From an uncultured Bacteroidales bacterium (lineage in GTDB: Bacteria > Bacteroidota > Bacteroidia > Bacteroidales > Paludibacteraceae): a DNA stretch of 34,527 nucleotides. Location of the stretch: positions 1-34,527 of the forward strand of contig CADCBP010000019.1 of assembly GCA_902799705.1 (NCBI GenBank), in the 5' to 3' direction. Below the pieces are notes generated by a model that worked only from the letters and a program-made list of their open reading frames with translations, made no database searches and was not told the DNA's origin. Each line of letters begins with the position of its first letter. Within the stretch, counting starts at the first letter, position 1. A program made the position numbers and the translations under genes. This document shows, in pieces, positions 28,638-34,527 of the stretch.

Positions 28638-29299
28638 TAGAAGTTAAGAACATCTATAAGTCCTTCGGGGACTTGGAAGTGCTGAAAGGCGTGAACCTGA
28701 GCGTGAAGAAAGGTGAGATTGTCGCCATCATCGGTAAGTCCGGCGCGGGAAAGACGACCTTGCTGCAAATTATCGGCACGTTGGACAGGCCTACGAAAGG
28801 CGAAGTGGTTATCGAAGGCACAAAAGTGTTTGCGATGAAAGACCGCGAGTTGGCGGCGTTCCGCAACAAGCATATCGGTTTTATTTTCCAGTTTCATCAG
28901 TTACTGCCGGAGTTCACGGCGCTGGAGAATGTGTGCATCCCGGCGATGATCGCGCGTCAGAAAGAGAGCGAATACAAACCGCGGGCGGAGAAGTTACTGC
29001 GTGAGTTAGGGCTCGGTGACCGAATGGACCATAAGCCGAATGAACTGTCTGGCGGTGAGAAGCAGCGTGTGGCGGCCGCACGGGCGTTGATGATGAGTCC
29101 CGACATCATCCTGGCCGACGAACCGACGGGCAGTCTGGACGAAAAAAACAAGAAAGAGTTGAGCGATTTGTTGTTGAAACTGCGGAAGGAATACGGACAG
29201 ACGATTCTGCTTGTGACGCATGACAAAGAGTTGGCGAGTATCGCTGACCGTGTGATTGAAATAAAGGATGGAATGATTAATGATGGAATGATGAATTGA
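28634..29299 (+). CDS. LolD-like ABC transporter ATPase
   Basis: The 221-residue ATPase has all ABC signatures: Walker [13 protein letters not shown]-loop [15 protein letters not shown], signature [15 protein letters not shown], Walker [13 protein letters not shown] and H-loop LVTHDKELA. The [16 protein letters not shown] segment is characteristic of the LolD/MacB group, which drives lipoprotein release from the inner membrane or mechanotransmission exporters. No membrane partner (LolC/E) is adjacent, so the exact system is open. A lipoprotein gene, gldB, follows. Its last codons ([10 protein letters not shown] and the TGA) are written by the start of the 8-bp tandem repeat, so changes in repeat number would alter the C-terminus. 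Confidence 0.88.
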
Positions 29300-29377
29300 T
29301 GGAATGATGAATTGATGAATTGATGGAATGATGAATTGATGAATTGATGGAATGATGAATTGATGGAATGATGAAGA
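29267..29377. repeat. 8-bp tandem repeat bridging the LolD-like gene and gldB
   Basis: About 13 units of GATGGAAT or GATGAATT follow with almost no interruption: one unit at 29267, a 7-bp variant at 29275, eleven perfect-length units from 29282 to 29369, and a last one running into gldB. It encodes the end and stop of the ATPase (TGA 29297-29299) and supplies the gldB start codons at 29368 and 29371. TGATG or ATGA start/stop overlaps recur throughout. Confidence 0.93.
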
Positions 29378-30375
29378 AGATTCTATATACTATTGCATGT
29401 ATGATGGTTCTGACCGCTTGTCAGAAAGGGAGAACCTATTTTCCGAAAGACACAGAGCCGCAAGAGATTGAGTTCGTGCGCTTTGACAATGCGCTGATGA
29501 ATGTGCATGAGGCGAGTGTGACGAAGGATGTGAAAGTGCTGTATGACGAATATCCGGCGTTCATGCCGTTGTGGGTGGAGGATGTTTTAGGTATTCCGTC
29601 GATAGATACGTTGTATCTGGAGCAGCAGTTACCGTTGTTCTTGAATGACACCTTGTATGGGTTCAAGCAGACGAATGCCCGCGAGCAGGAAGTGTTTGCG
29701 GACGTGAAGGATTTGGAGCAAGCGCTTGGAAAGGCATTTGCACGGATTCAATATCTATATCCGGAGACGGAGATACCTGCTTTCTATCTGTTCGTATCGG
29801 GTTTCCAGACGCCGATTTACTTCAACGACGAGATCATCGGTGTCGGCGCGGATATGTATCTGGGCAGCGACTACGAGTACTACAACCGCGTGGTATATGA
29901 ATACCAGAAACAGACGATGCGGAAAGAGTGTATTCCGGTGGATGTAGTGAGTGCGTATCTGTTCCGGACGATTCCTTATACGAGTACCAAGAGCCGGCTG
30001 TTAGACCAGATGATGTACAGAGGGAAAGTGATGTACCTGACGGCGCAGATCTTCGATAATCTGCCGGGTTATGAAGTGATGGGATGGAAGAAAGAACAGT
30101 GGGAGTGGTGTGTACGGAATGAAGAAGCCATCTGGCATTTGGTGATGGATAAAAGGGACTTGTTCAAGACCGAGAGTCTGATATTGACCGGTTACCTGAA
30201 TGACGGTCCTTTCACGTCGGAGGTGTCACAGGATGCGCCGGGAAGGTTAGGTATCTGGTTAGGATGGCGTATTGCGGAGAGTTACATGGAGCATCATCCT
30301 GAGGTGAGCCTGCAAGATCTGATGGCGGAAGGGGATGCGCAGAAAATATTAGAAGAGAGTTATTACAAGCCTTAA
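29368..30375 (+). CDS. gldB: Gliding motility lipoprotein GldB
   Basis: GldB is a lipoprotein needed for gliding and type IX secretion in Bacteroidota; its biochemical role is unknown. The 335-residue product has a lipoprotein signal (MKKILYTIACMMVLTAC, lipobox LTAC). It continues with FVRFDNALMNVHEASVTKDVKVLYDEYPAFMPLWVEDVLGI, YFNDEIIGVGADMYLGSDYEYY and the family tail APGRLGIWLGWRIAESYMEHHPEVSLQDLMAEGDAQKILEESYYKP. ATG 29368 or 29371 may be used; both lie at the end of an 8-bp tandem repeat. A second, diverged copy of the last 28 residues is fused to a sufS fragment 3 kb downstream. Confidence 0.9.
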   Translation: MMKKILYTIACMMVLTACQKGRTYFPKDTEPQEIEFVRFDNALMNVHEASVTKDVKVLYDEYPAFMPLWVEDVLGIPSIDTLYLEQQLPLFLNDTLYGFKQTNAREQEVFADVKDLEQALGKAFARIQYLYPETEIPAFYLFVSGFQTPIYFNDEIIGVGADMYLGSDYEYYNRVVYEYQKQTMRKECIPVDVVSAYLFRTIPYTSTKSRLLDQMMYRGKVMYLTAQIFDNLPGYEVMGWKKEQWEWCVRNEEAIWHLVMDKRDLFKTESLILTGYLNDGPFTSEVSQDAPGRLGIWLGWRIAESYMEHHPEVSLQDLMAEGDAQKILEESYYKP

Positions 30376-30377
30376 AA

Positions 30378-31568
30378 ATGGAAACTTACTTATTCAGAAA
30401 ACATATTCACCGTCTGCCGGGCAAAGTGATACATGCCGTGCCGCTTCCGAAGCCAGAAGTGACGGAAGGTTTCGGTGCGCGGGGGTGTATCGGCGAACTA
30501 TGCCGCGCTGCGGGATACAAGCAGGTGTTGGTAGTGACTGACACGACCCTGCATGAGTTAGGATATGAAAAAAAGATATCCGAGTCTTTGGAAGCCGCAG
30601 GCATCGGATACCGGTTATTCGCGGATATATGCTCTGAGCCAACGATACCTGTTATCGATGCGGGCCGCCAGGCGGCCATGGAGAGTCAAGCGGAGTGTAT
30701 CATCGCCTTAGGTGGCGGCAGTGTGATGGACAGTTGCAAGATCATTGCCGCGGGCGTAAAGATGCCCCATCTGCCCTCGAAAGTATTGCTTCCCAAGTTT
30801 CTCGTTGTGCCCGGAGATACCCTTCCGGTCATTATGGTTCCTTCCACTGCAGGGACCGGTGCAGAGATTACTGTAGGTGCCGTAGTGACGAACGAGAAGG
30901 GGCAAAAGGGTTCGACCGTCTTGGTCGGACTGAAGGTGGTACATGTTGTTTTAGACAGTGAACTGACCTTCCATGCCCCCCAAAGTGTGACGGCGGCATG
31001 CGGCATTGATGCGTTGAGTCATTGCATCGAAGGGGTTGTGAGCGATGTAGAAGAGAATGCGGAAGACATGCGCATGTCGATGGAGGGAGTGAGACTTATT
31101 CTTCAGAACCTGCCGAAACTGACGGGTGAAGGAGGGAGTTCATTGCCGGATGAAGAAGCGATTGAGGCACGGGGTAACATGTGCCGTGCGGCTTTGTACG
31201 GAGGCAATGCGATCAACACGCAGTTAGCCGGCTACGTGCATGCTTTCGCGCATAGCATCGGTGCCAAATACCATATGCCGCACGGGCAGGCTATATCGCT
31301 GATGCTGCTGCCCGTATTGGAATTCCAACAGCCGGCCTGCCGGGAGAAATATGAGAAGATGGCACAATATTGTGGTGTTCCAGATTTTCTGGAAGCCGTA
31401 CGGGCTTTGCTCAAAGAGTGCGGAATGGATAAGATTACCTCGCCGGTAAAGGAAGAAGACCACGAGGAACTGATTAAAATGGTAGCGGCTGATTCCATCA
31501 ATTATTCCGCTCCGGTGACGATGAATAACCGTCAGATAAAAGACATCTTAGAACAAATAACAAAATAA
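30378..31568 (+). CDS. Iron-containing alcohol dehydrogenase
   Basis: Group III alcohol dehydrogenases use a bound divalent metal, usually iron, and NAD(P) to interconvert alcohols and aldehydes. The 396-residue protein has CIIALGGGSVMDSCKIIAAG (nucleotide binding), IMVPSTAGTGAEITVGAVV, and the metal-ligand region (Asp and His in CGIDALSHCIEG; His residues in HAFAHSIGAKYHMPHGQAISLMLLP). All ligands are present. Substrate cannot be told. It starts two bases after gldB and is followed four bases later by an aldehyde dehydrogenase gene; the pair could run an alcohol-aldehyde-acid route. No microcompartment shell genes are nearby. Confidence 0.9.
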   Translation: METYLFRKHIHRLPGKVIHAVPLPKPEVTEGFGARGCIGELCRAAGYKQVLVVTDTTLHELGYEKKISESLEAAGIGYRLFADICSEPTIPVIDAGRQAAMESQAECIIALGGGSVMDSCKIIAAGVKMPHLPSKVLLPKFLVVPGDTLPVIMVPSTAGTGAEITVGAVVTNEKGQKGSTVLVGLKVVHVVLDSELTFHAPQSVTAACGIDALSHCIEGVVSDVEENAEDMRMSMEGVRLILQNLPKLTGEGGSSLPDEEAIEARGNMCRAALYGGNAINTQLAGYVHAFAHSIGAKYHMPHGQAISLMLLPVLEFQQPACREKYEKMAQYCGVPDFLEAVRALLKECGMDKITSPVKEEDHEELIKMVAADSINYSAPVTMNNRQIKDILEQITK

Positions 31569-31572
31569 CGAT

Positions 31573-32988
31573 ATGTACACGGAACAAGACATACAGACGA
31601 TAGTATCCGCTCAGCGGAAGTTTTTCCGGACAGGCGTGACGCTTCCTGTCTCATGGCGGATTGAACAACTGAAGAAACTTAAGGCGGCCGTCATTGCCCA
31701 TGCGGATGAGTTCACCGCTGCGCTGGCAGAGGACTTGGGCCGCAGCGAAGTAGAGGCGTACCTTTGCGACGTGGGTCCAATCATTGTAGAGATCAACGAG
31801 ATGCTGAGCGGGCTGCGTCGTTGGGCAAGGCCGGAACGGCATTTCAGCGGATGGATGTGTTTCCCGAGCCTCATCACCAAAGTGTATAAGATGCCTTACG
31901 GTGTATCGCTGGTAATCAGTCCGTTCAATTTCCCTATTCTGTTGACGATAGGTGTAGTAGCCGCGGCGATGTGCGGCGGCAATACGGTAGTGATCAAGTC
32001 GAGTTCGAAGTCGGCTGCATGCACGGCGGTGCTCAAGAAGTTTTTCGCAGAGGTCTTTCCGCCGGAGTACGTGACGCTTATTGACGGCGGGCATGACGTA
32101 GCGGATATGTGTCTGGCTCAGCGGTTCGACAAGATTTTCTACACCGGTTCTCCAGCGGTAGGCAAGCATGTGCTGTCCGAGGCGGCAAAGAACCTGACTC
32201 CGGTTGCTTTGGAGTTAGGCGGCGAGACCGGTAACTGGTGCGTTGTACGTGCGGACGCGGACCTGAAGGATGCAGCGCGCAAGATTGCGTTCTTCAAGTT
32301 GACCAACGCCGGGCAGATATGCATCAATATCAATCAGATAGCGGTGGCAGAAGAAGTGGCGGAGGTATTCATTGAAGAGTTGAAAAAAGCCTTTGTGAAA
32401 CAGATCGGCGAACATGCGGAGACGAATCCGGAATACCCGAAACTCATCACCGATGCGGCGTATGACAAATGCGCCAAGCTGGCGGACGAATATCGTGAAC
32501 GCATTGTGTTCGGAGGAGCGGGAGTAAAGGCGACGCGCAAATACGCGCCGACTATCATTTACCCCGTGGATATCAACGAGCATATCGTACAGCATGAGCT
32601 CTTCTGCCCGTTATTACCGGTTGTGCCCTACAAGGATGCGGAAGTGGATAATCTGATGGACGTTATCGCCGACCGCGAGCACCCGTTAGCGATGTATCTG
32701 TTCACGAAGAACATACGATGGGCGAACAGGGTGATGCAGACCCAGCAGTTCGGCGGAGGATGTATCAACGAAGTGTGCGTGCACATGATGGTCAAAGGAG
32801 TGCCTTTCAACGGTACAGGTCATTCCGGCATGGGTGCTTATCACGGCGAATGGGGATTTCGCGAATTTACCCATCCGCAAACGGTACTCAAAGGCAGCAC
32901 CCGTTTTAACTTGCCGCTCCGCGAACATCCGTACGGCGGCGAGGCAGGCAAGAAGAAAATGGCATTGCTGCGGCTTTTTGAAAAATAG
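31573..32988 (+). CDS. Aldehyde dehydrogenase family protein
   Basis: NAD(P)-dependent oxidation of an aldehyde to an acid. The 471-residue length and lack of a long N-terminal arm resemble the class 3 ALDH branch. Motifs: VSLVISPFNFPILLTIGVVAAAMCGGNTVVIKSS, FYTGSPAVGKHVLSEAAKNLTPVALELGGE (catalytic Glu), NAGQICININQIAV (catalytic Cys), YDKIFY/PLLPVVPY and FGGGCINEVCVH...FNGTGHSGMGAYHGEWGFREFTHPQTVL. The common LGGKSP reads LGGETG, which may reflect substrate or cofactor preference. It forms a two-gene unit with the iron alcohol dehydrogenase; the sufS fragment starts six bases later. Confidence 0.92.
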   Translation: MYTEQDIQTIVSAQRKFFRTGVTLPVSWRIEQLKKLKAAVIAHADEFTAALAEDLGRSEVEAYLCDVGPIIVEINEMLSGLRRWARPERHFSGWMCFPSLITKVYKMPYGVSLVISPFNFPILLTIGVVAAAMCGGNTVVIKSSSKSAACTAVLKKFFAEVFPPEYVTLIDGGHDVADMCLAQRFDKIFYTGSPAVGKHVLSEAAKNLTPVALELGGETGNWCVVRADADLKDAARKIAFFKLTNAGQICININQIAVAEEVAEVFIEELKKAFVKQIGEHAETNPEYPKLITDAAYDKCAKLADEYRERIVFGGAGVKATRKYAPTIIYPVDINEHIVQHELFCPLLPVVPYKDAEVDNLMDVIADREHPLAMYLFTKNIRWANRVMQTQQFGGGCINEVCVHMMVKGVPFNGTGHSGMGAYHGEWGFREFTHPQTVLKGSTRFNLPLREHPYGGEAGKKKMALLRLFEK

Positions 32989-32994
32989 AAGGGT

Positions 32995-33426
32995 ATGAAC
33001 AGAGCAGATTTTCCGATATTAAAGGAGCAGGTATATGGACAGGAGTTGGTGTACCTGGACAATGCGGCGACGAGTCAGAAACCGCAACAGGTGTTGGATG
33101 CTATCGTTGAAGCATACAGCACGTGGAACAGTAATATCCACCGCGGGGTGCATCACCTGAGCCAGATGGCGACTCACCACCACGAGGAGGCACGCCAAGC
33201 CGTGGCGGAATTTATCGGAGCGAAGAGCTCCGACGAGATCATCTTCACCAAAGGCACGACGGACAGCCTGAACACATTCGCTTTCTCCTTTGGAGAAGCT
33301 TTCATCAATGAAGGCGATGAGATCATCGTGAGCGGAGTAGAGCATCATCCCGAAGTGACGATCCAGCAACTGATGGCGGAAGGAGATGCACAGAAGATAT
33401 TGGAAGATAGTTATTATAAACCATAA
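32995..33426 (+). pseudogene. Chimeric fragment: SufS N-terminus joined to GldB C-terminus
   Basis: Residues 1-115 are the start of a group II cysteine desulfurase (SufS): FPILKEQVYGQELVYLDNAATSQKPQQVLDAI, NSNIHRGVHHLSQMATHHHEEAR, SSDEIIFTKGTTDSLNTFAFSFGEAFINEGDEIIVSGVEHH. At Glu-His-His the sequence switches to PEVTIQQLMAEGDAQKILEDSYYKP and stops, matching the end of GldB (24 of 28 residues identical counting from EHH). The PLP-binding lysine, the catalytic cysteine and most of the fold (about 290 residues) are missing, so desulfurase activity is not possible. DNA identity to the gldB tail is about 80 percent, largely synonymous changes. It may be a deletion product or a chimeric assembly join. 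Confidence 0.85.
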
Positions 33427-33432
33427 GAAAAC

Positions 33433-34519
33433 ATGCGAAAACATTGGATAGATAATTTGCGTTGGGTGACCGTACTGCTGGTACTCTTTTACCACGTTAT
33501 TTACTACTACAACGGCAAAGGGGTAGTAGGCGGAATAGGTGGCTTCGGAGGTCCTCAGTCCTTGGTTCATGCCTCTTTTGTTCTTGCTGGCAGGCATCAG
33601 TGCCCGGTACGCATTGGATGCACATTCGGAGAAAGAGTGGTTCAAAAGTCGCACCCGCAAGTTATTAGTGCCTGCTACAATAGGATTATTTGTTTTTCAA
33701 TGGATCGCCGGTTATTTCAACACGCATACACTTAGTTATACGAATGGAATAGACATGCTTGCCGACACTCCGGGCATCATTAAGTATGTGGCGTGGTCAC
33801 TGAGCGGTACGGGACCATTATGGTTTATACAGAATCTATGGTTGTTTAGTCTGGTTTTGCTGCTCGTTCGGAAGGTGGATGCACAAGATCGGTTCTACGG
33901 GTTCTGCGGGAAGATGGGTTTGGCAGGAATTATCCTGTTGGGCGTATTGTATTGGTTAGGTACCCGAACGCTGATCATGAACCCTCGTCCCGAAAGTTTG
34001 GATGGTCTTTATAACGGATACAAACCATTCTTTTATCTTCTTTTCTTTTTGAGCGGATACTTCGTCTTCTCGCATGAAAATGTATTAACGTCATTACGAA
34101 AAGGATGGATACCACTGATGGTGTGCGCCGTAGCAAGCGGTATAACATTATTAATCACTACCTTCGGTGAAGATAACACGACTCCTGTGTACCTAAGCAG
34201 TCCACTCAATTGTGTGTATGGATGGCTGATGTGTCTTGCCATGATCGGATGGTTCGCTGCCTGCTTTGATGACCGGAAATCCAAGTTTGCAGATTACATG
34301 TGCCGCAATAGTTTTGCTATCTATGTAGTTCACTATATAATCATCTCCGGTTTGGGGTATAGCATGAAGGTTTATACAACGCTTCCTCCGGTTGCGATGT
34401 ACGTGTTGCTTACGGTTGCCGTATTTACGTTGTCGCCGCTGTTAGTAGAACTAATACGCCGAATTCCTGTTATCAGATGGTGCGTACTGGGAGAGAAAAC
34501 AAAACAAATCAAGAATTGA
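33433..34519 (+). pseudogene. Acyltransferase 3 family membrane protein, frameshifted
   Basis: The first frame (33433 to about 33545) gives MRKHWIDNLRWVTVLLVLFYHVIYYYN, the usual first helix with the catalytic-type His of acyltransferase 3 proteins, then GGIGGFG and nonsense. The second frame, open from 33539 and shifted by +1, gives LSPWFMPLLFLLAGISARYAL and about nine further membrane helices to a normal end (WFIQNLWLFSLVLLLV, FYLLFFLSGYFVF, NSFAIYVVHYIIISG). Joined, the two would make about 360 residues, a normal length. So either a single-base indel has inactivated the gene, or the sequence has an error near 33540-33565. The family O-acylates cell-surface sugars; no substrate can be given. 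Confidence 0.82.
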
Positions 34520-34527
34520 AAAATAAC

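Follow-up and report, generated by a model that had tools for sequence, protein, structure and literature searches.

The core gene sufS appears at first sight to have been destroyed in an uncultured Bacteroidales bacterium of the family Paludibacteraceae, since an open reading frame (ORF) that begins as sufS ends as gldB, a gene whose complete copy lies further upstream on the same contig. Herein we ask whether this fusion is real, how it could have arisen, and what became of sufS. The window, i.e., the whole stretch of DNA that was analysed, comprises 34,527 nucleotides (contig CADCBP010000019.1, positions 1 to 34,527, assembly GCA_902799705.1) and was compared with a genus sample of 178 genomes, in which the window's own genome is labelled G000 and carriers of the fusion and their relatives are given G-numbers. 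The evidence below indicates that the chimera is real and that it is most likely the scar of a recombination rather than an enzyme of a new kind.

A fused reading frame ahead of a complete sufS

The chimeric ORF (sufS'::gldB', window positions 32995–33426) encodes 143 amino acids, with its two halves joined in frame: SufS residues 1–115, a Glu-His-His (EHH) motif shared by both proteins, and the last 25 residues of GldB. The first-pass annotation had read the ORF in the same way, as SufS up to EHH followed by the end of GldB, and both halves are indeed recognised by Pfam, with Aminotran_5 at residues 19–129 (E 9.7e-39) and GldB_lipo at residues 109–143 (E 2.8e-6); a phmmer search also matched the SufS part to solved SufS chains. 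The GldB_lipo match covers profile positions 275–309 of 309 only, and thus falls short of a near full-length domain. Compared with the SufS cysteine desulfurase, of which it has the first 115 residues and the EHH motif, the chimera is without the remaining two thirds: its SufS part stops at residue 118 and lacks the motifs SGHK and RTGHHC, which we take to be the PLP-binding lysine and the catalytic cysteine of SufS, and the chimera falls outside SufS membership. The full gldB that had been placed 3 kb upstream was located at 29368–30375, and the divergence of the chimera's tail from it (17 of 87 bases and 4 of 28 residues, counted from EHH on) was exactly reproduced. No second complete gldB was found in the window's genome, this being its only complete copy. 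The features of this part of the window are as follows:

29368–30375, + strand: gldB, complete, 335 residues, the native copy (Pfam GldB_lipo, E 2.6e-90)
30378–31568, + strand: iron-containing alcohol dehydrogenase gene (Fe-ADH), cargo between gldB and the sufS fragment (Pfam Fe-ADH)
31573–32988, + strand: aldehyde dehydrogenase gene (ALDH), cargo (Pfam Aldedh)
32995–33339, + strand: sufS', the first 115 sufS codons, with bases 1–170 native and the sequence common to carriers from about base 241
33340–33348, + strand: junction GAGCATCAT (Glu-His-His), which sufS and gldB of G170 both carry unchanged
33349–33426, + strand: gldB', the end of a foreign gldB (25 codons plus the stop codon), G170 gldB being nearest (94%; 82 of 87 bases)
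33433–34519, + strand: acyltransferase-3 family gene (AT; Pfam Acyl_transf_3 on the intact G075 copy)
34437–34527, + strand: AT 3' end plus spacer, matching the end of contig C38 exactly over the final 89 bases

The AT copy in the window carries a 29-base deletion after approximately position 33558, which shifts its frame. Imperfect GATGAATTGATGGAAT repeats were seen by eye at 29270–29370, from the end of an ABC-transporter ATPase gene through to gldB.

The last 89 bases of the window are identical to the upstream end of contig C38, and C38 therefore most likely continues the window. A search of the genome for a complete sufS, as had been advised, was successful on this contig, where the gene encodes 404 amino acids, with SGHK starting at residue 217 and RTGHHC at 357. 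As read from the assembled contigs, the order in the window's genome would most likely be gldB – Fe-ADH – ALDH – sufS'::gldB' – AT – sufS. In G075 the whole order of gldB, cargo, chimera, AT and sufS was found inside one 347-kb contig, with Nudix and tRNA-editing-domain (YbaK-like) genes where the window has Fe-ADH and ALDH. The earlier claim that the strain must have another desulfurase or lack the SUF system consequently does not hold, as a complete 404-residue SufS is encoded directly after the window's last gene. Two readings were rejected: plain truncation of sufS, given that the tail is the end of GldB and that a complete sufS lies downstream, and loss of SUF, given that the complete gene is in the genome and adjoins the window's end. 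The apparent destruction of a core gene is thus resolved as an additive insertion with the intact gene behind it, which is also a warning, since annotation from the window alone would call sufS truncated.

Recurrence of the junction and its probable origin

When the locus was compared with that of relatives, as the first-pass annotation had proposed, the same chimeric junction was found in 7 of the 178 genus genomes. Six (G000, G075, G170, G154, G002 and G165) match the chimera with E of at most 1e-60, the seventh (G164) has a one-base deletion, and G188 is a probable eighth carrier, in which one contig ends inside ALDH and another starts inside an identical gldB tail. The carriers include Bacteroidales bacterium UBA3653 (G075) and the uncultured Bacteroidales RUG14576 (G170), RUG11067, RUG12423 and RUG14329 (RUG presumably standing for rumen genomes), and many other genome records in the same listing name ruminants and the family Paludibacteraceae. 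All named carriers are metagenome assemblies, and their contigs often break at this locus. A complete sufS accompanies the chimera in five of the seven (G000, G075, G170, G002 and G165), only sufS residues 101–404 were found in G164, and no intact sufS was found in G154, these last two being ~82% complete genomes in which the contig of the chimera ends inside AT. G154 (L147 1845–2022) and G164 (L152 spacer) also have a similar ORF of ~60 codons between gldB and the chimera.

Pairwise identity among the seven chimeras is 73–92% over bases 1–120 of sufS', 71–97% over bases 121–240, 89–100% over bases 286–348 and 98–100% in the gldB tail, which is identical in six of the seven (G002 being read to the contig end). 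AT averages at least 99% up to the sufS start codon, after which the next 40 bases fall to 82%; these values cover 11 of the 21 intended carriers, and since a fixed anchor was unmatched in the other ten the 99% is not the all-carrier average. Among those dropped from it were G190, G192, G151, G030, G104, G149 and the carriers of AT pieces only, and the letter-level alignments comprised 16 sequences on the side of sufS and 19 for the left end of AT. Against the AT of G075, the copies of G170, G190, G192, G200, G151 and G030 are 96.5–97.2% identical, those of G104 and G149 90%, and most others at least 98% over the available part, with the pieces of G150, G143 and G157 lower. Divergent fronts combined with a near-identical tail and AT point to a shared middle piece set in species-specific ends. 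Both sufS copies of G075 have the same native 5' sequence (98–100% over bases 41–240), and the front of the window's chimera (bases 1–170) is 96–100% identical to the intact sufS of G165, i.e., native to the G000/G165 group. A native sufS start in both copies means that the insertion left the recipient with a duplicate of its own start of sufS. For bases 171–240 of the window's chimera no match above 81% was found among 47 other sufS starts (a comparison of 48 sequences, in which loci with no recognised start pattern were skipped).

The shared piece was also traced towards its likely parents. Across the 178 genomes, the complete sufS of G170 (95%) is the best non-chimeric match to the 117 bases of sufS that lead up to the junction, the second-best by score reaching 85%, and the best non-chimeric match to the gldB tail is the gldB of G170 (94% over 87 bases). 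G170 likewise came first among 55 gldB ends, with 82 of 87 bases against 76 for the next, and the first 38 bases of the tail are identical to its gldB. The right arm (bases 1–40 of the complete sufS in G000, G188 and G002) is 98% identical to the sufS of G170 and 100% identical to the front of its chimera. Since both halves match G170 best, the fusion would, on sequence similarity, most likely have formed between the gldB and the sufS of a G170-like lineage. This accords with the suggestion that the tail derives from a different but related gldB rather than from the neighbouring one, that of G170 being nearest at 94%. The AT of G170 is nevertheless of another sequence type (96.8% to that of G075) than in most other chimera carriers: the AT pieces of G188, G165, G154 and G164 are 98.9–100% identical to G075's, and that of G000 is 98% identical when the gap is left out. 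G170 itself is therefore not the direct donor, and either a G170 relative or an exchange at a later stage has to be assumed.

At the join the exact match is nine bases, GAGCATCAT, and the CC after it derives from gldB, not from sufS. The intact sufS of the window's genome reads GAGCATCACTCG at this position, and the sufS of G170, the likely parent type, reads GAGCATCATTCG. The placement of the join at a shared Glu-His-His in the first-pass annotation thus stands, while its statement that both genes carry GAGCATCATCC fails for sufS, which does not have it. The gldB/sufS pair of G170 shares 10 nine-base words, where ~4.7 are expected by chance; because such matches are expected between genes of this size, the short match alone is unremarkable, and what is above chance is the recurrence of one junction in 7 of 178 genomes, rather than the match.

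We consider it probable that the chimera is the scar of a join between gldB/sufS alleles at the nine-base match in a G170-like strain, whose product then spread between species. A gldB – AT – sufS allele would have been joined to a gldB – X – sufS allele at the match in the EHH codons, giving gldB – X – sufS'::gldB' – AT – sufS in one step. AT would then be flanked by sufS on both sides, so that ordinary homologous recombination could bring the unit into sufS in other species, with RecA-type recombination as the putative motor. The recipient would retain its own gldB and cargo, the 5' part of its own sufS would form the chimera's front, and behind AT sufS would be restored to full length. In the five carriers that have both copies, the donor tract in sufS' runs from about base 241, and in the full sufS it extends (by eye) over at most ~26–75 bases, with none in G165. 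A plain double crossover was rejected as the means of spread, as the donor tract in the rebuilt sufS is too short. The unequal tracts in the two sufS copies call for inter-chromatid exchange or later gene conversion, not one simple crossover; entry may have proceeded by single crossover of a circle or by inter-chromatid exchange, with gene conversion afterwards. The locus is in this respect a natural case in which the likely parents, the junction and the recipients of a gene fusion can be separated at base level.

An origin within a single genome is unlikely, although it deserves to be weighed. Unequal crossing-over between sister gldB – AT – sufS copies via the nine-base match would produce a tandem duplication, gldB – AT – sufS'::gldB' – AT – sufS, of which the first AT was later replaced by cargo. 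This would give the same junction, both halves do match one lineage best, and cargo turnover occurs at this hotspot (see below); however, no genome among the 178 has two AT genes around the chimera (broken contigs could hide one), and one step more is required than for joining two different alleles.

Less probable still is that the chimeric protein is useful, as a fragment pairing with SufS or as a translated leader for AT, and has been kept by selection. Its frame is open in five of the seven carriers (in G002 readable only to the contig end), its tail is conserved, and within G170 the chimera and the intact sufS differ by 11 synonymous and two amino-acid changes, an excess that could hint at constraint on the chimera, or at gene conversion. 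Since gene conversion from sufS can mimic constraint, this count is not decisive, while the identity of the tail among carriers can be put down to recent spread, which counts against a selected function. The absence of the SufS lysine and cysteine motifs, together with frames that are broken in two of the seven carriers (G165, +1; G164, −1), leads us to infer that the chimeric protein is probably non-functional. In the chimera of G165 (L150, C77) the sufS sequence changes from G000-like to G002-like at about codon 24, where one base is inserted; this represents a second recombination or an assembly join.

The gldB/sufS boundary and the acyltransferase gene

Among the matches listed, gldB and sufS lie on one contig and strand at 108 loci, 75 of them with a gap of at most 120 bases (including 34 that overlap) and 33 with a larger one. 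This count excludes the chimera carriers, pairs on different contigs or strands, and G109 and G179 (pairs at least 35 kb apart), and includes G146 twice for its two loci. The two genes are usually neighbours in this genus, and their boundary is a hotspot for accessory genes coming and going, with variable genes between conserved flanks. The cargo types comprise ALDH, Fe-ADH with ALDH, an aminotransferase, MATE, Nudix with a tRNA-editing domain, and esterase-like and phosphatase-like ORFs (some families tested with Pfam, the rest named by eye). Matches to Fe-ADH by tblastn also follow gldB in G079, G108, G165 and G188, and ALDH alone lies between gldB and sufS in G112 and G199. The chimera carriers themselves differ in cargo (Fe-ADH with ALDH; Nudix with a tRNA-editing domain; flavodoxin-like with MATE; aminotransferase; one small ORF), and like cargo is found between gldB and an intact sufS in chimera-free genomes (G079/G108; G018/G127; G162; G032), the likeness being judged by tblastn for Fe-ADH and ALDH and by eye for the others. 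No mobility genes were found in six unbroken AT alleles or in the Pfam-scanned cargo, a scan that covered the smaller part of the remaining cargo and none of the five intervals of more than 5 kb. The sufS and gldB ends around AT are mosaic, an observation that refers to this locus and not to the rest of the genome.

AT has matches in 24 of the 178 genomes at E 1e-40, 21 of them at 93% identity or more (fragments included). Among the matches listed, each of these 21 has the gene next to gldB, to sufS or to the chimera, and the other three matches (45–69%) lie on contigs other than those of gldB and sufS. In a family sample of 300 genomes from 33 genera, drawn from a larger group, 12 genomes had a match at E 1e-100 or better, all of them in this genus and none outside it. 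AT looks like an often gained and lost gene, as surface-glycan modifiers are. Several copies are altered, with deletions of 29 bases (window), 92 bases (G154), 27 bases in frame (G007) and ~66 bases in frame (G146), and with 36 inserted bases in G165 that appear to be a repeat; altered copies lie at 33433–34519 in the window, at 2461–3127 in L147, in L160, at 915–1964 in L075 and at 25–1176 in L151. In G007 (L160, C31) AT is joined to gldB ~28 codons before the normal end of that gene, a different illegitimate junction with the same cargo.

It is very improbable that a site-specific recombinase or transposase moved AT at the gldB/sufS boundary. In most of the carriers compared, AT does end on its right side at or near the start codon of sufS, and its constant position beside these genes would agree with such an enzyme, but AT fills the whole gldB–sufS interval in G190, G200, G192, G104, G149 and G007, which leaves no room for a recombinase gene in these unbroken alleles, and the shared tracts at its ends vary in length. 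The piece had no megablast match in plasmid and phage records, and the exact 33-base junction pattern had no match in viral contigs.

Contigs end in or next to AT in many genomes (G000:C38, G170:C8/C16, G002:C5/C29, G142:C2/C13, G150:C7/C45, G151:C28/C31, G143:C13/C35 and G165:C8/C77), as would be expected if assembly breaks on near-identical copies that several species share within one sample. That two strains or loci were wrongly joined in assembly, as had been suspected, is hardly credible, even though the sources are metagenome assemblies, many contigs of the genus end at this locus and the chimera of G165 has a one-base insertion at its mosaic breakpoint, given that the same junction recurs in several species and in seven genomes whose upstream genes differ, that two assembly projects at least (UBA and RUG records) contain it, and that it lies once within a 347-kb contig.

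A possible mobile cassette and comparison with known systems

Somewhat tentatively, and against our own leaning, the unit sufS'::gldB' – AT – sufS 5' part could be regarded as a recombinase-free mobile cassette with direct-repeat arms of ~0.35 kb, which would excise as a circle. If true, the cassette would enter the sufS of any related species, each time duplicating and rebuilding the 5' part of a core gene, and one accidental fusion would have turned a gene that replaces cargo into one that is added to it. The locus suggests how genes that lack mobility machinery may spread among gut Bacteroidales via the ends of core genes. Among the papers searched, none was found to name both gldB and sufS, and, at the level of titles, there was nothing on this locus in work on microhomology chimeric genes or on horizontal transfer in rumen Paludibacteraceae.

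For many hotspots, the relevant passages of a 2017 study (PMC5635113) propose that core genes on either side are the sites of exchange through homologous recombination, independent of mobility genes. The present locus is alike in that variable cargo lies between two conserved neighbours, no mobility genes were seen in the intervals scanned and exchange would proceed by the flanks, whereas in this case one cargo allele bears arms of the two flanking genes fused together, and cargo is added inside sufS instead of replacing cargo. Homology-facilitated illegitimate recombination, in which one homologous anchor and one illegitimate join add DNA, is described from experiments in the cited part of PMC3240628, and the same route is proposed in that of PMC5361080 for the keeping of old immunity genes in series in the type VI clusters of Vibrio cholerae. 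As far as those accounts extend, the likeness consists of a homologous anchor, an illegitimate join, here at the few identical bases GAGCATCAT (nine bases), and a gain of DNA; the difference is that the present join is in frame between two core genes and that its product would then have spread among species. Lastly, merodiploids of Streptococcus pneumoniae, according to the sections of PMC3784515 used here, arise by transformation with partly repeated DNA and carry duplications of ~100–900 kb. Common to both would be that a donor repeat pairs in an alternative way and is integrated between chromatids, which leads to duplication, although the duplicated stretch at the gldB/sufS boundary is ~0.35 kb rather than ~100–900 kb.
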